34,430 bases of DNA from Malaciobacter halophilus. Its GTDB lineage: Bacteria; Campylobacterota; Campylobacteria; Campylobacterales; Arcobacteraceae. The stretch lies in assembly GCF_002837275.1 (NCBI RefSeq), contig NZ_NXIF01000040.1, positions 1 to 34,430 of the forward strand. The letters are read 5' to 3'. Below the pieces are notes generated by a model. It searched no databases and was not told where the DNA came from. It worked only from the letters and a program-made list of their open reading frames with translations. This document shows, in pieces, positions 3,209-11,433 of this stretch. Position 1 is the stretch's first letter; each line of letters starts with the position of its first letter. The position numbers were made by a program, and so were the translations under genes.

Positions 3209-3751
3209 TTAGTTCTTAGGAAAATCCTTAATAATAGTAATTACAAGTTCTCCAACTGTAATTCCAAACTTTTTCATTTTAGAGTGATTTATAATTACAC
3301 CATCTTCTTGTAAATGTAACCAATCCTTTACATCAATATTTATAGTACTACCATTATAAGGAACTTGCATTGTATAATCAATCATTACAGTATTTCCATT
3401 TGCTATCATTGAAGCTTTACCTACAATATCTCCTGCTGTACCTATATATTTCCCATTTGAAGTTGATTTTAATGTCCAAACTCTTGTTTGTTTTTCCCCA
3501 TCATTATAAATAAACTTTTCATTTAAAGTTCCTATATTATTCTCATCCCAACTTCCAACTAAATCGCCTTTAAATGTTCTTATTATTTCTCCACTTCTAT
3601 TTTTCACTAAACCATATGCAGTTAACTTTCCATTAAAATACTCTTCTGGAATAAATTTTGGAGTAGTATTGTCAAAATCACTAATTTTCATAGAACCACA
3701 ACCTCCTAAAAAAAAGCAAAATCCTAGTGTATAAAATATTTTTAAATTCAT
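3209..3751 (-). CDS. DUF3833-type lipoprotein
   Basis: 180 residues from the ATG at 3751. I chose this start because AAGGA lies 5 bases upstream and it places a lipoprotein signal at the N-terminus: MNLKIFYTLGFCFFLGGC, lipobox LGGC with Cys18. A longer frame reaching 3862 adds a basic, non-signal-like extension inside the preceding gene. After the lipid anchor the protein is a soluble beta-rich domain (motifs YFNGKLTAYGLVKNRSG and GTAGDIVGKA) typical of DUF3833, a family of unknown function usually found beside Cfa-like and FAD enzymes. It overlaps the upstream cfa-like gene by 4 bases (ATGA), so translation is probably coupled. It is the last gene of the lipid cluster. Membrane-attached, probably facing the periplasm. 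Confidence 0.82.
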   Translation of the reverse strand: MNLKIFYTLGFCFFLGGCGSMKISDFDNTTPKFIPEEYFNGKLTAYGLVKNRSGEIIRTFKGDLVGSWDENNIGTLNEKFIYNDGEKQTRVWTLKSTSNGKYIGTAGDIVGKASMIANGNTVMIDYTMQVPYNGSTINIDVKDWLHLQEDGVIINHSKMKKFGITVGELVITIIKDFPKN

Positions 3752-4971
3752 ACTAATCCTTTGTTTAAATATATATTTTGGTCTCTTGAAAATACTAATT
3801 GAACAAGATTTATATTTCTTGTTATAAAAGCAGCTTCGCAATAGTTTAAATACATTTTCCACATTCTTATAAAATAATTATCAAAACCTAACTTTTTAAC
3901 TTCATCTAAACTATTTGTAAACTTTTCATGCCAAATATTTAAAGTTTTTGCATAATCTTCTGTAAACTCTTCCATATGCAAAAGATTTAATCTTGTACTT
4001 TTTGAAGTTACATCTAAAATCTTTCCTACGCTAGGAAGATGTCCACCTGGGAAAATATACTTTTGAATAAAATCTGTACTTTTACAATACTGTTCATATC
4101 TACAATCTGGCATTGTAATTACTTGCATTGCTAAAACACCATTTGGTTTTAGTAGTTCTTGGCACTTTTTAAAAAAAACATCAAAATACTCTTTTCCTAC
4201 TGCTTCAAACATCTCAACAGCAATAATTGCATCATACTTCCCTTTCAAATCTCTATAATCTTTAAGCAAAATCTCTATTGCTTCTTCAATTTTTTCTTCT
4301 TTAAATCTTTTAAGACACATAGCTTTTTGTTCTTTACTTAAAGTTACAGTTGTAACCTTACAAGCTTTTTCTTTAGCAAGATGTATAGCCATAGACCCCC
4401 AACCTGAACCTATTTCTAGAACATGAGAGTTTTCCTTTACTCTTAATTTATTTGCTAATAATGTAATTTTTCTTTTTTGTGCTTCAAATAAATCTTCATC
4501 TTTATTATCAAAAACTGCACTTGAATACATCATAGTTTTATCTAAAAAAAGTTTGAAAAAATCATTTGATAAATCATAATGTTGTGAGATATTTTTTTTT
4601 GAGTTTGTTTTTGAATTTTTTCTAAGAATATGTTTAAATCTATTAAATTGAGGAAATAGATTAATAAGCTTATTATTTCTTTCATCACTACTTAAAGTAC
4701 CAAGAGCATTAGAGTTCAACAAAGCAAGTGAAATTAAATTTGTAAGATTATTTGTCTCAAACTCTTCATCCATATAACTTTCTGCAAAACCTATATCTCC
4801 ATATAATAATACTCTTTTGAAAAAATTATTATTAAAAATATGAAGAGTTGCTTTTGGATTAGTATTATCTCCAAATATCTCTTTTTTACCATTTGTAAAG
4901 ATAACTTCTAATGTACCTTTTTCTATTTTTGATAAAAACTTATATCCAAACTTCTCCCAAAACTTTTTCAT
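3748..4971 (-). CDS. cfa: Cfa-like SAM-dependent fatty-acyl-phospholipid methyltransferase
   Basis: 407 residues. The frame can start at a TTG (4974) or an ATG (4971); I chose ATG because GGAG lies 6 bases before it but only 3 before the TTG. The SAM-binding loop VLEIGSGWGS, the acidic segment VEMFEAVGKEY and the PGGHLPS motif are those of cyclopropane-fatty-acyl-phospholipid synthases (mycolic-acid synthase family). The enzyme adds a methyl or methylene carbon from SAM to the double bond of a membrane fatty acid. In Rhodobacter a related enzyme makes a methylated intermediate of furan fatty acids. Because an FAD oxidoreductase, DUF1365 and DUF3833 are its neighbours, it may act in a modified-fatty-acid route, not as the housekeeping Cfa. 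Translationally coupled to the DUF1365 gene (TGATG). Confidence 0.9.
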   Translation of the reverse strand: MKKFWEKFGYKFLSKIEKGTLEVIFTNGKKEIFGDNTNPKATLHIFNNNFFKRVLLYGDIGFAESYMDEEFETNNLTNLISLALLNSNALGTLSSDERNNKLINLFPQFNRFKHILRKNSKTNSKKNISQHYDLSNDFFKLFLDKTMMYSSAVFDNKDEDLFEAQKRKITLLANKLRVKENSHVLEIGSGWGSMAIHLAKEKACKVTTVTLSKEQKAMCLKRFKEEKIEEAIEILLKDYRDLKGKYDAIIAVEMFEAVGKEYFDVFFKKCQELLKPNGVLAMQVITMPDCRYEQYCKSTDFIQKYIFPGGHLPSVGKILDVTSKSTRLNLLHMEEFTEDYAKTLNIWHEKFTNSLDEVKKLGFDNYFIRMWKMYLNYCEAAFITRNINLVQLVFSRDQNIYLNKGLV

Positions 4972-5717
4972 CAAAATCTCCTTATTTTATCTTGCTTTGT
5001 AGGACTATGCCACTTTAAACTCTTTTTATAAAGTTTTATAGCTTGCCAAAATGTTCTTGTAACTACGAAAGTTGTTAAAAACCAATATTTAAAAAATAGT
5101 TTCAAGATATTTTTACTACTAAACGTTATTGGTTTACCACTAAAAATAGCTGTAAGGCTTTTATTGTTTTTCTCATGATAATCAATTTTCAAACTTAAAA
5201 GTTGGGGCTTAAAAGTTAATGTAAAAAAATATGTACCATCTTTATTAAAAAAAGGAGATACATACATATTTTTTGTGATAGTTGCTTTATACTTACTATT
5301 TTTTTGCTCTTTTAACTTTAAATCATATATAGTTTTTCCTCCATTATAGTTATTAACTTCTGCTAACATATAAATAGGCTTATTATTTTTTATAACTAAA
5401 AGAAGACTAATAGGATTAAATACAAAGTTAAAAATACGAGGAAGTGTAATAAACCTTAAAGAAATATCTTTTTTTTCTATATCAAATTTATTTAATAACT
5501 CTTCTACATTTTGTATAAAATCTTCACTCTTGCCAAAATGGTCTTTTGCATAAAATGAAAATAGATTTAAACTATTTATAGAAAAATATTTTTGATTTTG
5601 TAAACTTTTAAAATCATCTAAATCAATATCTAAGAGATAAAAACCATATGTAAACTGATGTTGTTTAGGCTCAAATCTTTTATGATATATTTTACCTTCT
5701 AAAAATTGATGACTCAT
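4971..5717 (-). CDS. DUF1365 family protein
   Basis: 248 residues. The N-terminus (GKIYHKRFEPKQHQFTYGFY) and the central RIFNFVFNPISL and NNYNGGKTIYDL segments are typical of DUF1365. No catalytic motif is known to me. The family almost always sits between an FAD-dependent amine-oxidase-like protein and a Cfa-like methyltransferase, exactly as here, so a shared role in fatty-acid modification is likely. The C-terminal quarter is hydrophobic and basic (FFKYWFLTTFVV...), consistent with membrane association. The start codon overlaps the stop of the FAD gene by 4 bases (ATGA) and its own stop overlaps the cfa-like start. Confidence 0.85.
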   Translation of the reverse strand: MSHQFLEGKIYHKRFEPKQHQFTYGFYLLDIDLDDFKSLQNQKYFSINSLNLFSFYAKDHFGKSEDFIQNVEELLNKFDIEKKDISLRFITLPRIFNFVFNPISLLLVIKNNKPIYMLAEVNNYNGGKTIYDLKLKEQKNSKYKATITKNMYVSPFFNKDGTYFFTLTFKPQLLSLKIDYHEKNNKSLTAIFSGKPITFSSKNILKLFFKYWFLTTFVVTRTFWQAIKLYKKSLKWHSPTKQDKIRRF

Positions 5718-6949
5718 AATTCACATCCAAACTCTTTTGCAATTGTATTTGCACTAAATAGTCCATCTTCATGAAAACCATATCTCCAATATGCTCCTGC
5801 AAAATATGTATTATTTTTACCATTTATAAGTTCTCTTTTTTCTTGAGCATTTATTGCTTCTTTATCAAATTGTGGGTGTTCATAAGTAATTTTTTCTATA
5901 TACTTTTTAAACTCATATGTTTCATTTAATGTTACAAAGTAGTTTTTTTGAGTTTTTAAATTTTGTAATTTATTTATCCAATAAGATAAACTAACACTTG
6001 TTCTATCTTCATTATTTGTATAGTTCCATGAAGCATAAGCTTTTTTATTTGGATATAAAGCATTTGTATCTGTATGTAATATTGCATTATTTTGTTTATA
6101 AGAAAAACAAGATAAAATCTCTTTCTCCTCTTGTGTAGCATCTTCTAAAAGCTTTAATACATCAGGAGCATGACACGCAAAAATCACTTTATCATAGATA
6201 AAACACTCATTATGACTATTTTGTAAAACTACTTTTTGTTTTTCTCTTTTTATTTTAACAATATCACTATTTACTACGATTTTTCCAGAAATATATTGTG
6301 CTATTTTTTTTACATAATTTATTGAACCATTACTAACAGTTAACCACTGATGATGAGTATTTACACCAAGTAAGCCATGGTTTTTAAAAAACTGAAGAAA
6401 TGTTCTTGCAGGAAAATCATTTATTTTAGTATCAGGTGTTGACCAAATAGCAGCGCCCATAGGTAAGATATATCTTTGTTTAAATACTTCTGAGAAATCT
6501 TTTAAATACTCTCCTAAAGTTTTATTTAAATCCTTATGTTCTATTTTTAAATCATTATTTGCTTTTTTATTAAACTTTAAAATATCCATAATCATTTTAT
6601 AGTGATTATACGAAAATATATTCTTTTTTTGAAAGAACATTCCACTTAATGAGTCTGCATTATATGCTACATCAGTTTTTTTATCCCAAAAACCAAAACT
6701 CATATTGCTATTTTCAACTTTTACACCAAGTTGCTTAAATAGTTTAGTTAACAAGGGGTATGTTTCATAATTAAAAACTAAAAAGCCAGTATCAATACCA
6801 AACTCTTTTTCACCTTCATGTACAAATGTTGTCCTTGCATGTCCACCTAATCTTACCTCTTTTTCATACAAATCTACATCATGTTTTTTACTAAGTAAAT
6901 ATGCACTTCCTAAACCACTTATTCCTGCACCAATAACTGCTATTTTCAT
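5714..6949 (-). CDS. FAD-dependent oxidoreductase (amine-oxidase/desaturase-like)
   Basis: 411 residues. The N-terminal dinucleotide-binding motif VIGAGISGLGSAYLL (Gly7, Gly9, Gly12), the acidic strand end DLYEKE and the LGGHARTT loop are typical of the NAD/FAD-binding amine-oxidase superfamily. The C-terminal FAGAYWRYGFHEDGLFSA closes the FAD site. Members of this subgroup accompany DUF1365 and Cfa-like proteins; in Rhodobacter furan fatty-acid synthesis an FAD enzyme desaturates a methylated fatty acid, which is the role I infer here. Protoporphyrinogen-oxidase-like annotation is a common alternative for such proteins. AGGAAG lies 6 bases before the ATG, and the start overlaps the end of the restored frame of the small frameshifted ORF upstream. 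Confidence 0.88.
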   Translation of the reverse strand: MKIAVIGAGISGLGSAYLLSKKHDVDLYEKEVRLGGHARTTFVHEGEKEFGIDTGFLVFNYETYPLLTKLFKQLGVKVENSNMSFGFWDKKTDVAYNADSLSGMFFQKKNIFSYNHYKMIMDILKFNKKANNDLKIEHKDLNKTLGEYLKDFSEVFKQRYILPMGAAIWSTPDTKINDFPARTFLQFFKNHGLLGVNTHHQWLTVSNGSINYVKKIAQYISGKIVVNSDIVKIKREKQKVVLQNSHNECFIYDKVIFACHAPDVLKLLEDATQEEKEILSCFSYKQNNAILHTDTNALYPNKKAYASWNYTNNEDRTSVSLSYWINKLQNLKTQKNYFVTLNETYEFKKYIEKITYEHPQFDKEAINAQEKRELINGKNNTYFAGAYWRYGFHEDGLFSANTIAKEFGCEL

Positions 6950-7099
6950 TTGTATCTTCCTTGACTATCTTGTTTTGTAAATATTAAGCTATTTAAATCT
7001 ACATAAGGCTCTAAACTTTTTTATACTTACAAACTCTACTGGCTTTAAAGCATAAGCACTTAAAGAAAATGTTAAAAAAAGTAGTATTTTATAAAACAT
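6946..7099 (-). pseudogene. Small secreted-protein ORF with an apparent one-base frameshift
   Basis: A good ribosome-binding site (AGGAGAG) precedes ATG 7099. The frame reads a clear signal peptide, MFYKILLFLTFSLSAYA, then LKPVEFVSI, and meets a run of six A (7017-7022 on the + strand as T). Beyond it the frame ends at TAG after 36 codons. Removing one A keeps it open to a total of 50 codons (KSLEPYVDLNSLIFTKQ...) and ends in a TGA overlapping the ATG of the FAD gene, the coupling seen throughout this cluster. That fit suggests a real small periplasmic protein broken by a frameshift, a sequencing error, or slippage on the A run. No family recognised; it could also be the remnant of a longer gene. 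Confidence 0.55.
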
Positions 7100-7162
7100 T
7101 TCTCTCTCCTATGTAAATATTTTATTGTAAAATAGTGCTGTTTTGTACTTATAATTAGTCAG

Positions 7163-8419
7163 TTAATATTTTAAATATTTTGATTTTAGAAGAAATATTA
7201 TTGCAATAAATTTTAATAAAACAGGAAGTATAGAGTATAAAAAAGATAAAACAAATTGTGAAGTTTTAGATTCAGGACTTGAATCAAAATCAAAAACTCC
7301 TAATATAATAAAAGTAAGCCCAACAGCAGTTGCTAATGATAGCTTAGTAAGCATTGCCCAAAAACTAAATAGTACTCCAGTAAACTGAGCGTCATGCTTG
7401 GTAAACTCTTGTGCTATATCTGCTTGAATAGATGATGGCAAAAACATATCAGCACCTAAACTAAAACCTGAAACTACACAAATAATAATAAAAATATATA
7501 AATCCCCTTGAGATAAAAAAGGTACATATAAAAATGCCATTGAAGCTAAAAGCATTGAGTATAACCATATATTTTTCTTACCATATTTTTTAGATAAATA
7601 GTACCAAAAAGGTAAAGCTAAAACTCCTGATAAAAAATATATCAAGAGTAAAACTCCTATAAATTTTTCCTCTTTTAATACATGAGTTACAAAAAAAATA
7701 AATAGTGTTGCAGGTATAGCATTTGCTGTATTATTTATAAAAAAAGCAACAAATAATTTTCTAAATCTAAAACTATTAATTTGAAGAAATTTTATTGACT
7801 CTTTTATTGTAATATCTGTATCTATTTTTTTAGTATCTTTTAATCCATAAATTAAAAAAAGTAAAAGAGGAATTATTAAGTATAAAACTAAACTCCACAT
7901 GAGTAATAAGGACTCTTTTTCGTCATTTGATACTTTAAAATAGTATGGTAAAAAAAGCGCTATTATAACAGCAATTATAGTAAAAAACTCTCTACTTGAA
8001 GCAAGTAAATTATTATGATTTTTATCATAACTTATCTCTGCACTTAAACTAAAATAAGGAATAGTAATAAAACTCCAACTTGTATATACAAGAAGTGAAA
8101 AAATAAATAGATAAAAAGCATTTGCATCTTTTATTGGATGTGTTAAAAAATAAAAAGATATTAGTACAAGAATAGTACCAAATATAATAAAACTACCTCT
8201 TTTAAAGTATTTATCACTTAATCTTCCAATAATTGGATCTGTAAACATATCAATAATTCTTGCAATTAATAAAACTAATCCAACTAAAGCTATATCAATG
8301 CCAACATCTTTTACATAAAAAGTTGGTAAATAAATATATAAAGGTAAACCTAAAATTGCTAAAGGAATGGCAAATAAGGAGTAAGAAAAAAGTTTTAATT
8401 TTGAAAGAGGTTTAGCCAT
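7163..8419 (-). CDS. MFS transporter, GPH (glycoside-pentoside-hexuronide) type
   Basis: 418 residues with about 12 hydrophobic segments. The N-terminal LPLYIYLPTFYVKDVG, and the loop RIIDMFTDPIIGRLSDK between segments 2 and 3, are characteristic of the GPH/MelB branch of the major facilitator superfamily. Characterised members import sugars with a cation, but members embedded in cfa/DUF1365/SDR clusters have no known substrate and might handle a lipid or lipid precursor; that is inference. It overlaps the upstream NTF2-like gene by 8 bases. After its stop a 63-base gap holds the ribosome-binding site of the small frameshifted ORF and TA-rich sequence that could act as a secondary promoter. 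Confidence 0.88.
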   Translation of the reverse strand: MAKPLSKLKLFSYSLFAIPLAILGLPLYIYLPTFYVKDVGIDIALVGLVLLIARIIDMFTDPIIGRLSDKYFKRGSFIIFGTILVLISFYFLTHPIKDANAFYLFIFSLLVYTSWSFITIPYFSLSAEISYDKNHNNLLASSREFFTIIAVIIALFLPYYFKVSNDEKESLLLMWSLVLYLIIPLLLFLIYGLKDTKKIDTDITIKESIKFLQINSFRFRKLFVAFFINNTANAIPATLFIFFVTHVLKEEKFIGVLLLIYFLSGVLALPFWYYLSKKYGKKNIWLYSMLLASMAFLYVPFLSQGDLYIFIIICVVSGFSLGADMFLPSSIQADIAQEFTKHDAQFTGVLFSFWAMLTKLSLATAVGLTFIILGVFDFDSSPESKTSQFVLSFLYSILPVLLKFIAIIFLLKSKYLKY

Positions 8420-8849
8420 CTATACTTATCTTTTTTTTTATAAATCTTAAAATAGCTCCAAGAATTGGTATATTCTCATAAATATTACTTGTAGCATCCC
8501 AATAATCAATATGAAACTCTACTTTTGAGTTTTCATTAAATTTTACAATACTTATACCATCAAAAAATTGAGTTTTTGAATCTTTCTTAGTTTTATAAGT
8601 AAACTTCCAATATATATAAGATTGCTTATTACTTGAGCTCATATCTAAAATTATAAATTTTGGTTCATACAAAGTTTCATACATATCTTGAAAAACTTCA
8701 TAAATTTTATCAACACCTACTACTTTTTGAAAGGGGTCTTGAAAAATAGATTTTTCATCAAAAAAATAGTTATAATTTTCATACAAACTATCTTTATTTA
8801 GATTTTCAAAAAATTTGCAATAAGCTTCTAAATTACTATTTGTACTCAT
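8412..8849 (-). CDS. NTF2/SnoaL-like small protein
   Basis: 145 residues, the size of a single NTF2-like cone domain. Visible family traits are the N-terminal helix (LEAYCKFFENLNKDSLYENYNYFF), FDEKSIFQDPF, the VVGVDKIYEVFQDMY segment and the final strand pair (KVEFHIDYWDAT). Proteins of this type sit next to an SDR in ChrR-type stress clusters. The fold is used by small isomerases and hydrolases but also by non-enzymes; no catalytic pair is obvious. Coupled to the SDR by ATGA and to the transporter by an 8-base overlap. Confidence 0.8.
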   Translation of the reverse strand: MSTNSNLEAYCKFFENLNKDSLYENYNYFFDEKSIFQDPFQKVVGVDKIYEVFQDMYETLYEPKFIILDMSSSNKQSYIYWKFTYKTKKDSKTQFFDGISIVKFNENSKVEFHIDYWDATSNIYENIPILGAILRFIKKKISIDG

Positions 8850-9601
8850 TTTAAAAGCCTTTTTGTAATAGCTAAAGAGATAAAATAAGGTAATATTTTC
8901 AATAATTTTAAAAATAATCCTAATTTAAAAGGAAACCTTATTTCAAAATTCTTATTTTTTTCTATTTCTAAAGCAATAATTTTTGCTGCATCAAAAGGTT
9001 GTAGAAGTTGAGGCATCTCAAAATCATTTTTTTTAGTAAGTCTAGTATTTACAAAGCCATGATTAATTATTTGTAATTTGATATTTATTTTTTCAAGTTC
9101 GGGATATAAAGATTGTAAGACATTAACCAATGCAGCTTTTGAAGCACTATATGCTCCACCATAAGGTAAACCAAAATCACTTGATAAACTACAATTAAAT
9201 ATCCATTTACAAGCTTTTTGAGTTTTAAAAAAATCTTTTAATATAGCAATTACTCTAATAGCTCCAAGATAATTAATATTTGTCATCTCTTCAAAATCTT
9301 TTATACTCCAGTTTTCAAGATCAAAACTATTATAAACTGCTGCATTATAAAAAAGCATATCAATTTCATGCTCTTGGGATTTTATTTTTTCAAGAGAGTC
9401 TTTTATAGAACTTTCACTACTGACATCCATATTTACTAAAGTAAGCTTATATGTATATCTCATCATTAGCTTAATTAGCTCTTTTGATTTTGTTGCACTT
9501 CTTGCACTTACAATAACGCTATAACCTTTTTCAAGCCAGATTTTAACAAGCTCTAAGCCTATTCCACTACTAGCTCCTATTATCCAGATTTTTTTAGACA
9601 T
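8846..9601 (-). CDS. Short-chain dehydrogenase/reductase (SDR)
   Basis: 251 residues, a classical SDR length. The cofactor motif IGASSGIG (residues 8-15), the NAAVYNS segment (NNAG equivalent), catalytic Ser in NCSLSSDFG and YSASK (Tyr151, Lys155) are all present, so NAD(P)-dependent oxidoreductase activity is expected. Substrate unknown; its position as the first gene of the lipid cluster suggests an acyl or aldehyde intermediate. AAAGGA lies 7 bases before ATG 9601. A -10-like TATACT (9634-9639, minus strand) lies about 33 bases upstream of the start, so the cluster's promoter is probably here. No sigma factor or ChrR gene is in view. Confidence 0.9.
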   Translation of the reverse strand: MSKKIWIIGASSGIGLELVKIWLEKGYSVIVSARSATKSKELIKLMMRYTYKLTLVNMDVSSESSIKDSLEKIKSQEHEIDMLFYNAAVYNSFDLENWSIKDFEEMTNINYLGAIRVIAILKDFFKTQKACKWIFNCSLSSDFGLPYGGAYSASKAALVNVLQSLYPELEKINIKLQIINHGFVNTRLTKKNDFEMPQLLQPFDAAKIIALEIEKNKNFEIRFPFKLGLFLKLLKILPYFISLAITKRLLK

Positions 9602-9691: not shown

Positions 9692-9724
9692 CAAAAAAAA
9701 AGGCCTTCAAAAGAAGGCCTTTTT
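9692..9724 (-). terminator. Strong intrinsic terminator
   Basis: A perfect 12-bp stem (AAAAAGGCCTTC 9697-9708 and GAAGGCCTTTTT 9713-9724) with an AAAA loop. Read on the minus strand it is followed by a run of nine T, the textbook Rho-independent form. It ends minus-strand transcription arriving from msrPQ or from the candidate small RNA and insulates the SDR cluster. It could work weakly on the plus strand, but no plus-strand gene feeds it. Confidence 0.9.
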
Positions 9725-9824
9725 ACACACAAGGAAACATAAAAAATTAGTTGTCGGAAAACTTCTAATTCGCTGTCTAATTTCTACTGGAAAATAAGTA
9801 AGTCCGTATTCTTGCTTATTTCTA
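9692..9824 (-). ncRNA. Candidate small RNA or structured 3' UTR downstream of msrPQ
   Basis: About 130 bases between a perfect -10 box and the strong terminator, with no ORF. Two inverted repeats are present: AAATAAG..AAG at 9791-9801 paired with CTT..CTTATTT at 9810-9820 (11-bp stem, one C-A mismatch on the minus strand, a U-G wobble if read on plus), and AATTAG/CTAATT at 9745-9770. It could be an independent small RNA, or the 3' UTR of msrPQ processed into one. Family not recognised; not tmRNA or SRP RNA by motif. Confidence 0.45.
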
Positions 9825-9829
9825 TGAAA

Positions 9830-9835
9830 ATTATA
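9830..9835 (-). promoter_or_regulatory. Consensus -10 box of the candidate small RNA
   Basis: TATAAT on the minus strand, predicted start near 9824. The -35 region is replaced by the phased 11-bp repeat array, as at activator-dependent promoters. Confidence 0.45.
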
Positions 9836-9840
9836 ACAGT

Positions 9841-9896
9841 ATAGTATTAACTAAACTTCAACAAATAGTTAACAAATAGTTAACTAAATAGTTAGA
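9841..9896 (-). repeat. Phased 11-bp direct repeats upstream of the -10 box
   Basis: On the minus strand GTTAACTATTT occurs as two exact adjacent copies (9884-9874 and 9873-9863), preceded by a near copy one base out of phase (about 9896-9886), and followed in phase by two weaker units starting GTTGA (9862) and GTTAA (9851). The array ends 5 bases before TATAAT. Eleven-base periodicity is about one helix turn and is the spacing of OmpR/PhoB-type response-regulator sites, so this may be an activator array. The regulator is unknown. Confidence 0.6.
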
Positions 9897-10443
9897 CTCT
9901 ATTTCTTCTAATAATTTGTTGTAGAAGTTTACTATAACCAATAGCTAAAATCACTATAATATATACAAACTGTATAAAAGTTAATGATTTTTGTGCCATT
10001 ACAAAATGAATAGTAATTAAAATCAAAGCTAAATATATCAATTTATGATAGTTATTAAATTTTTTAAATAGTGTTTTTGTTGATGTTATAGCCATAAATA
10101 ACACAATAAAAAATGCTATCATTCCTAAATATATAAAAGGTTTATCAATAGTTTGTTTTATTATAAAAGATATATCAAGTTGTGCATCTAATACAATAAA
10201 ATTCAAAAAGTGTAAAAAAGCATAAAAAAATCCAAAAACTCCTATTAATTTTCTAAATTTTATTAGATTAACCCACTTTTTTATCATAGATAAACAAATA
10301 GTAAAAAAAAGTAAAACTGTTGAAATAACACCTGTAACTGTATATATATACTTTATAGGGTCATTTATATTTTCTAAAATAAAAAGTTCATATGAAGTAA
10401 CTATTAAAGGTATTAAAAAAAATATAACTAATAAATATTTCAT
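9892..10443 (-). CDS. msrQ: MsrQ, heme-binding membrane subunit of the methionine sulfoxide reductase MsrPQ
   Basis: 183 residues, six hydrophobic segments, ferric-reductase-like transmembrane family (YedZ/MsrQ). Likely heme ligands His78 (YAFLHFLNF), His133 (NYHKLIYL) and His146 (TIHFVMAQ) are in place, as is the RKLIGVFGF segment. MsrQ passes electrons from the quinone pool or a flavin reductase to periplasmic MsrP. The start codon overlaps the msrP stop by one base (TAATG), so the pair is co-translated. Immediately after its stop comes the phased 11-bp repeat array. Confidence 0.92.
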   Translation of the reverse strand: MKYLLVIFFLIPLIVTSYELFILENINDPIKYIYTVTGVISTVLLFFTICLSMIKKWVNLIKFRKLIGVFGFFYAFLHFLNFIVLDAQLDISFIIKQTIDKPFIYLGMIAFFIVLFMAITSTKTLFKKFNNYHKLIYLALILITIHFVMAQKSLTFIQFVYIIVILAIGYSKLLQQIIRRNRV

Positions 10444-11402
10444 TAGAACTCCTTAGTTAAGTCCATACCCTTATATAAATGAGCTACTTGCTTTTCATAT
10501 CCATTAAACATTAAAGTATCTTGTTTAAAAAACTTTCCTAAAACTCTCTCTTTTGCTTGAGACCATCTTGGGTGATCAACATTTGGATTAACATTTGCAT
10601 AAAAGCCATACTCTTTTGGATTCTCTTTTTGCCAAGTATTAAGTGGTTGTTTATCTGTAAAAGAGATTCTTGCAATTGATTTTATTGATTTAAAACCATA
10701 CTTCCAAGGAACAATAAGTCTAATTGGTGCTCCATTTTGTTTTGGCATAGAAGAACCATATAGCCCAACAGCCATTAGTGTAAGTTCATTCATAGCCTCA
10801 TCCATTCTAAGTCCTTCAACATATGGATAGTCTATTGCTTTAAAAACCATATTTCTTTGGTCAGGAAACATATCATCATCAAATAAAGTTTCAAATCTTA
10901 TATACTTTGCACTTGATAAAGGCTTTAAATACTTAATAAGTTTAGATAATTCAAAACCAACCCAAGGAACAACCATAGACCATCCTTCTACACATCTAAA
11001 TCTATAAATTCTCTCTTCTAGTGCAAACTTTTTTAATAAATCATCAAAATCTAAAGTCATAGGTTTTTCAACTAAACCATCAACTTCAATTGTCCAATTT
11101 TTTGTATTTAAAGTGTGTGCTAAATCTTTTACTCTTTTTTGATTAGTTGTAAACTCATAAAAGTTATTATGGGAAGTTATTTGCTCATAACTATTTAATT
11201 TTAAATTATTGGGATTTTTATCTTCTTTAAAACTTAAATTTTTTATAGGTAAACTCTGTTTAGCTAAAGCTTGCATTACTGAACCACTTGCAACTAAACT
11301 TGCAGCTCCTAATTTTAAAAAGTTTCTTCTTTTATCAAATAACTCTTTTGAAGTTACTTCATTTTCACTAAGTTGCCAATCTTTTTTTGTAAGTTTATAC
11401 AT
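10443..11402 (-). CDS. msrP: MsrP, periplasmic molybdopterin methionine sulfoxide reductase
   Basis: 319 residues. The frame also has a GTG one codon upstream (11405), but AAGGA lies 6 bases before ATG 11402 and only 3 before the GTG, so I use the ATG. A twin-arginine signal RRNFLK (Arg25-Arg26) precedes a hydrophobic stretch ending LAKQ, consistent with Tat export of a folded cofactor protein. The sulfite-oxidase-like domain has the molybdenum-ligating Cys137 in [10 protein letters not shown], followed by VPWVGFEL, and the later [20 protein letters not shown]. It repairs oxidised methionines in envelope proteins with electrons from MsrQ. A palindrome and -10-like box sit just upstream, so it may have its own promoter. 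Confidence 0.94.
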
Positions 11403-11433
11403 CACATATCCTTGTAAAAGTGTTATTTTTTAG

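Follow-up and report, generated by a model that had tools for sequence, protein, structure and literature searches.

The phased 11-bp repeats on the minus strand of the window analysed here, a stretch of 34,430 nucleotides from Malaciobacter halophilus (contig NZ_NXIF01000040.1), emerge from comparative analysis as a conserved switch, a predicted operator occupying the -35 position upstream of a hitherto undescribed small RNA (sRNA) gene of Arcobacter-type bacteria. Conservation of the operator, the sRNA gene itself, a promoter common to htrA and enrichment of seed matches among the predicted targets lend computational support to a broader reading, which we consider likely, namely, that an envelope-stress two-component system induces HtrA together with Hfq-independent sRNAs repressing outer-membrane receptors. 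The initial annotation of this region had recognized the repeats and missed the RNA itself, its regulon and its targets.

The repeat array is real: the window contains a single GTTAAC-N5-GTTAAC (9868-9884), a pattern that none of 100 dinucleotide shuffles reproduced, and Tandem Repeats Finder delimits an 11-bp array at 9860-9894. The two exact GTTAAC copies annotated initially are confirmed, but the number of units in 11-bp phase is five rather than four. Four half-sites at exact 11-bp spacing (9846..9884, minus strand; GTTAAC 9884-9879, GTTAAC 9873-9868, GTTGAA 9862-9857 and GTTAAT 9851-9846) form the predicted operator, whereas the outermost, degenerate unit, TCTAAC (9890..9895, minus strand), is in phase with the others but not conserved in relatives; it runs into the msrQ stop codon (9894-9892) and is probably without function. 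As had been noted, the array leads to TATAAT on the minus strand (9835-9830), within an extended -10 box, TGTTATAAT (9830..9838), that is conserved in the aligned relatives. No -35 hexamer is found at the usual spacing from this TATAAT, and a consensus promoter scan called no promoter at 9830..9838. The GTTAAT half-site is separated from the -10 box by 10 bp, which is the geometry of PhoB, and direct 11-bp repeats are a trait across the OmpR family.

The inner four half-sites are conserved in at least 20 relatives with gap-free spacing to the -10 box, and 22 operators, taken from the first half-site through the -10 box, align in gapless register, their half-sites starting at -55, -44, -33 and -22 from the TATAAT end. 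The exception is a diverged genus, g11 (G031 L013, G015 L107), which has kept the sRNA and the response regulator described below and has an operator reduced to two half-sites, with less space before the -10 box. Direct repeats in about 11-bp phase across the -35 region, the mark of an OmpR/PhoB-type operator, were found in 20+ sequences, and the earlier suggestion that an activator of this kind binds at the place of the -35 element gains comparative support, the same predicted operator recurring before htrA, which is accompanied by an OmpR-family regulator and a kinase. Copy number does not vary freely among the relatives; both the number of half-sites and their spacing are conserved, and a neutral tandem repeat is thereby ruled out.

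The interval between msrQ and the next gene, previously described as gene-free, contains the small RNA gene (about 130 nt; 9695..9823, minus strand), which is defined by its homologues, by covariation and by a match to model R2 at 9693-9825 (E 1e-18). Transcription probably starts at about 9823 and ends in the T run after the terminator; the start near 9824 anticipated by the initial annotation fits the comparative data, which place a putative terminator-ended RNA unit downstream of the operator. Upstream lie msrQ (9892..10443, minus strand), encoding the heme subunit of the periplasmic methionine sulfoxide reductase, and msrP (10443..11405, minus strand), encoding its catalytic subunit, and the next gene downstream encodes an SDR-family oxidoreductase (8846..9601, minus strand). 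The RNA comprises a 5' stem-loop (9789..9822) with the loop AAUACGGA, matched by GCGAA-type loops in other members, an unstructured anti-Shine-Dalgarno seed, UUAUGUUUCCUUGUGUG (9726..9742), containing the invariant 13-mer UGUUUCCUUGUGU, and an intrinsic terminator, AAAAAGGCCTTC-TTTT-GAAGGCCTTTTT, followed by a T run (9697..9724), all on the minus strand. The terminator (9724-9697), with 12 stem pairs, compensatory changes at 11/12 of them and a T run, is the sole terminator-like site of the region, and the 13-mer TGTTTCCTTGTGT just before it is invariant across 17 aligned copies. A search with the 211-bp unit recovered all six genomes of the genus and weaker matches in other genera of the family, with all matches belonging to Arcobacteraceae, including Arcobacter sp. 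CECT 8985 and Arcobacter sp. BM102; several genomes carry two tandem copies of the unit, and model R2 matches in 15 of 60 relatives. In one relative (G001), a phage-like insertion with an S24-type repressor gene and others (L042:1071-7997) lies between msrQ and the sRNA. Within the window itself, positions 3209-9601 hold a cluster of genes for DUF3833, a CFA-type methyltransferase, DUF1365, an amine oxidase, a GPH symporter, a SnoaL-like protein and the SDR enzyme, which we take to resemble the singlet-oxygen (ChrR sigma-E) lipid operon of Rhodobacter.

Fold z-scores of single members range from -1.65 to -5.5, better than those of shuffles in most cases. In a structure-guided alignment of 21 members, 17 of the 21 stem pairs have changed on both sides, and 91.9% of paired cells are complementary compared with 74.5% after shuffling (0/500 shuffles reach the real value), a signal that is abolished by shifting the partner, with the caveat that these figures lean towards the structure because the alignment was fitted to it. 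An independent count based on the 5' hairpin arms of individually folded members found 115 of 130 pairs, whereas 2000 shuffles of the arms gave at most 97. RNAalifold predicted no structure on a plain MAFFT alignment because the hairpin arms were misaligned, which the structure-guided model remedied. No Rfam family scored above the gathering threshold for the small RNA, so that a known riboswitch or Rfam RNA is ruled out. The candidate gene has three features expected of a trans-acting sRNA, namely its own promoter, a Rho-independent terminator and a conserved structure.

A sequence-only model of the operator and the -10 box (R1), which matches the window at 9830-9885 (E 5e-13), was run on 60 relatives, with E<1e-5 taken as strong. 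Strong matches are confined to the window's own family, in which most carriers have two to five each, and 45 of 46, all of which were examined, lie ahead of htrA or of a short RNA ending in a terminator; the RNA behind the strong match at G019:C16 has no clear terminator. The model was built from 16 of the matched sequences, two htrA promoters among them, so these 16 are recovered by construction and the remaining matches are not. Before htrA, the operator lies about 30 nt from the start codon. The bare repeat, which the initial annotation had proposed to search for in the genome, is not diagnostic outside its promoter context, since scanning genome-wide for the consensus GTTAAY-N5-GTTAAY, one mismatch allowed, produced 13 matches versus 26 for the reversed control. 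Model R1 returned three strong matches in the window's own genome, at the studied RNA, at a second RNA with another seed (G000:C34) and at htrA (G000:C51). These are followed by a gap to a weak match (G000:C38, E 0.0018), which looks accidental.

The htrA operon runs from htrA through an OmpR-type response regulator to an ArsS-type kinase. The regulator has receiver and winged-helix (Trans_reg_C) domains and adjoins both htrA and the kinase in a CprRS-like arrangement; it scores under the NCBIfam cutoffs for CreB (165 vs 273), BaeR (161 vs 380) and CpxR (130 vs 341), whereas the kinase belongs to the ArsS family (NF038389, 391.8 bits vs a cutoff of 250). An ortholog of the regulator (at least 76% identity) is present in 25 of 37 genomes of the family, and a strong operator was found in 21 of these 25 versus 1 of the 12 others (p=1.6e-5); counted by genus, the figures are 11/14 versus 0/6 (p=0.002), an association that is partly confounded by shared ancestry and thus amounts to support rather than proof. 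Two observations run counter to the proposed system: the shortened operator of g11, and G008, the one genome with a strong operator in which no ortholog was found (280 contigs and probably incomplete). On this comparative evidence, the operator is most likely bound by the regulator of the htrA-regulator-kinase operon and probably worked by an envelope-stress sensor system. A different relative (G002) encodes, before another response regulator and kinase, a small exported protein that may carry a CpxP/Spy-like LTxxQ motif (L024:1581-2705).

The complement of the seed is a Shine-Dalgarno sequence with a 5' extension (ACACAAGGAAACAU), and the RNA is predicted to shut off the production of outer-membrane iron and nutrient receptors. 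Gene starts of the form CACAAGGA-N(2-9)-ATG (that is, CACAAGGAN(2-9)ATG), collected from six genomes of the genus, belong to 34 proteins, including 10 with a TonB plug domain, two Opr porins and one DUF3373 protein, as well as solute-binding proteins, lipoproteins and inner-membrane transporters, whereas a composition-matched control pattern, CCAAAGGA, yielded 22 proteins with no outer-membrane protein among them. There are 74 TonB plug genes in the six genomes. Orthologs are among the matching receptor genes, which leaves about four independent receptor groups as targets, plus the porins; the matching receptors differ from species to species, and good candidates in the genome of M. halophilus are receptors on C75 (L377), C26 (L410), C38 (L424, L399) and C34 (L381). 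In a duplex test of 66 receptor versus 193 background start regions, the latter drawn from a subset of loci rather than from whole genomes and with start codons picked automatically, the real seed gave an AUC of 0.823, and 51% of the receptors paired better than the 1% background threshold. Neither the 200 dinucleotide-shuffled nor the 200 flank-shuffled seeds reached the real seed (means 0.67 and 0.65; maximum 0.807; 0/400), the shuffled means indicating that part of the receptor signal is composition. The rRNA anti-Shine-Dalgarno sequence did not separate receptors from background (AUC 0.536); hence, stronger ribosome-binding sites are not the explanation.

The second sRNA (G000:C34:26407-26462; L027, L040) has the same operator, the seed UUCAUUGUUCUUCC and is conserved in the genus; a search with its target pattern matched mainly within genes, and TonB receptors are not set apart by its seed (AUC 0.645, like the shuffles). 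A third class of operator-controlled RNA, with CUCC-type seeds, was observed beside truD in five genomes (L053, L058, L060, L062 and L066 in G034, G018, G019, G030 and G013, respectively). Across RNAs of the operator class, the seeds include UUUCCUUGUGU, UUGUUCUUCC, CUCUCC and UUCUCC, and GCGAA recurs in the loop of the 5' hairpin, and often of the second hairpin too, in 15 of 21 representatives (for instance, L090, L092, L093, L027, L007 and L023); the 21 RNAs hold 19 copies, compared with 1.6 in shuffles, and these are spread across different seeds. That the 5' module stays constant while the seeds are exchanged suggests an element for protein binding or stability. Hfq is the chaperone usually needed by sRNAs of this kind. 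No match to PF17209 over the cutoff was detected in the 60 relatives, in which positive controls were found, and an Hfq-dependent sRNA is ruled out. A bolder idea, conceivable and in our view doubtful, is that of a modular envelope-stress sRNA family without Hfq, in which the operator and the GCGAA 5' stem-loop are constant, the seeds are exchanged and the loops mark a replacement RNA chaperone.

The same observations can be read in other ways. Phased T-rich repeats might represent a generic Campylobacterota sigma-70 promoter without a specific regulator: in Campylobacter jejuni, sigma-70 promoters have no -35 box and show a periodic signal at -7, -17, -27 and -38 (PMC3847290), which would explain the T-rich phasing around half-sites 3 and 4, at about -39..-34 and -28..-23. 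Generic periodicity, however, leaves unexplained the conservation of GTTAAC at -61..-56 and -50..-45 and of GTTAAT at -28..-23, and the strong matches, only three in the M. halophilus genome, although many sigma-70 promoters must exist, fall before only two classes of gene and follow the presence of a single response regulator, which renders this account decidedly unlikely. A more searching alternative is a real operator with another OmpR-family binder, either an orphan regulator of the CemR/HP1043 type or a second response regulator of 48-50% identity, htrA being one shared target. OmpR-family regulators are numerous in these genomes, direct 11-bp repeats are not peculiar to any one of them, and HP1043-type regulators likewise use direct repeats. 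The paper on CemR (PMC11334517) gives no motif for comparison. Nevertheless, the operator precedes the own operon of the htrA-linked regulator in most genomes, its presence tracks the ortholog of that regulator and the 48-50% paralog also occurs in genomes without strong operators (G006, G025, G016); we therefore view a different binder as unlikely.

Doubts of another kind concern the RNA and its targets. The RNA lies directly behind msrQ and, in many copies, includes the frame ATG-TTT-CCT-TGT-GTG-TAA, so it might be a remnant or 3' RNA from the msrPQ operon, or else the gene of a short peptide (MFPCV) instead of a trans-acting regulator. This is highly improbable given that the RNA has its own promoter, that copies exist away from msrQ, for example, beside uvrD in G001 after the phage-like insertion, and that base pairing is favoured by the target test with shuffled seeds; G007, G010 and G031 retain the RNA motif without the five-codon frame, and the peptide is ruled out for lack of conservation of the frame. 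Likewise, the match to TonB receptors could reflect a shared style of start regions (Fur boxes, AT richness, type of Shine-Dalgarno sequence) rather than pairing, in keeping with shuffled seeds also exceeding an AUC of 0.5. The failure of every shuffled seed to reach the real one, the share of receptors beyond the 1% threshold and the low values of the rRNA anti-Shine-Dalgarno sequence and of the second seed speak against this explanation, which we judge unlikely.

Under the preferred reading, that of an envelope-stress system with an sRNA arm, an envelope problem would be sensed by the ArsS-type kinase. Two dimers of the activated regulator would then bind the four half-sites, replacing the -35 element and standing beside RNA polymerase as PhoB does, and would turn on htrA and the regulator's own operon, the RNA of about 130 nt and the second sRNA with its different seed. 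Composed of a protective 5' stem-loop, the single-stranded UUUCCUUGUGUG seed and the terminator, the RNA would act without Hfq, presumably in the absence of this chaperone from the cell, its seed blocking the translation of TonB-dependent receptor mRNAs by pairing with their Shine-Dalgarno regions; some porins, lipoproteins and inner-membrane transporters may be further targets. Fewer proteins would thus burden the envelope while misfolded ones are cleared by HtrA. Most of what is known about sRNA arms of envelope-stress responses comes from Hfq-dependent gammaproteobacteria. If the model is correct, a two-component system producing both HtrA and receptor-silencing sRNAs in Hfq-less Campylobacterota would be an independent solution to the same problem, with an operator, a regulator, an RNA and a set of targets predicted and open to immediate testing. 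It also raises the question of which protein assists sRNAs in Campylobacterota and points to htrA-linked regulators elsewhere in the phylum.

By its domains and gene order, the regulator-kinase pair can be likened to CprRS of C. jejuni, and it shares with ArsRS of Helicobacter pylori an OmpR-type regulator with an ArsS-type kinase; the gene order in C. jejuni is htrA-cprR-cprS. CprRS is an envelope-related system with an essential regulator (PMC9449129). For ArsR, no clear consensus site has been described (PMC11162790), and this regulator represses an antisense RNA to ureB (PMC8322730), whereas the regulator considered here is predicted to drive a family of trans-acting sRNAs. Trans-acting sRNAs without Hfq are themselves known in Campylobacterota, as illustrated by NikS and RepG of H. 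pylori, the former acting on mRNAs of outer-membrane proteins (PMC8322730). The predicted sRNA resembles them in being trans-acting in a member of the phylum lacking Hfq, but NikS and RepG are controlled by NikR or growth phase, use repeat-targeting or other seeds and are unrelated in sequence and operator.

An OmpR-family regulator driving sRNAs that repress TonB-dependent receptors is also known from OmrA/OmrB under OmpR, which are Hfq-dependent and have the seed at the 5' end. In the RNA described here, the seed is located just before the terminator and the sequence is unrelated. MicA, RybB and MicL of Escherichia coli and Salmonella are induced by envelope stress alongside the periplasmic protease and chaperone response and repress the synthesis of outer-membrane proteins (PMC6737893). 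The predicted sRNA likewise would form, with HtrA, an arm of an envelope-stress response, but with a two-component operator in place of a sigma-E promoter, without Hfq, with an unrelated sequence and with predicted targets that are mainly TonB receptors. In the Cpx system, the response regulator controls degP/htrA and the sRNA CpxQ, a product of RNase E cleavage of the cpxP 3' UTR that depends on Hfq and acts on envelope proteins, a Na+/H+ antiporter among them (PMC6737893); by contrast, the present RNA is an independent gene with its own promoter, and the response regulator falls below the CpxR, BaeR and CreB cutoffs. Judged by analogy, the operator-controlled RNA is a counterpart of the sRNA arms of the sigma-E and Cpx responses rather than a member of those families.
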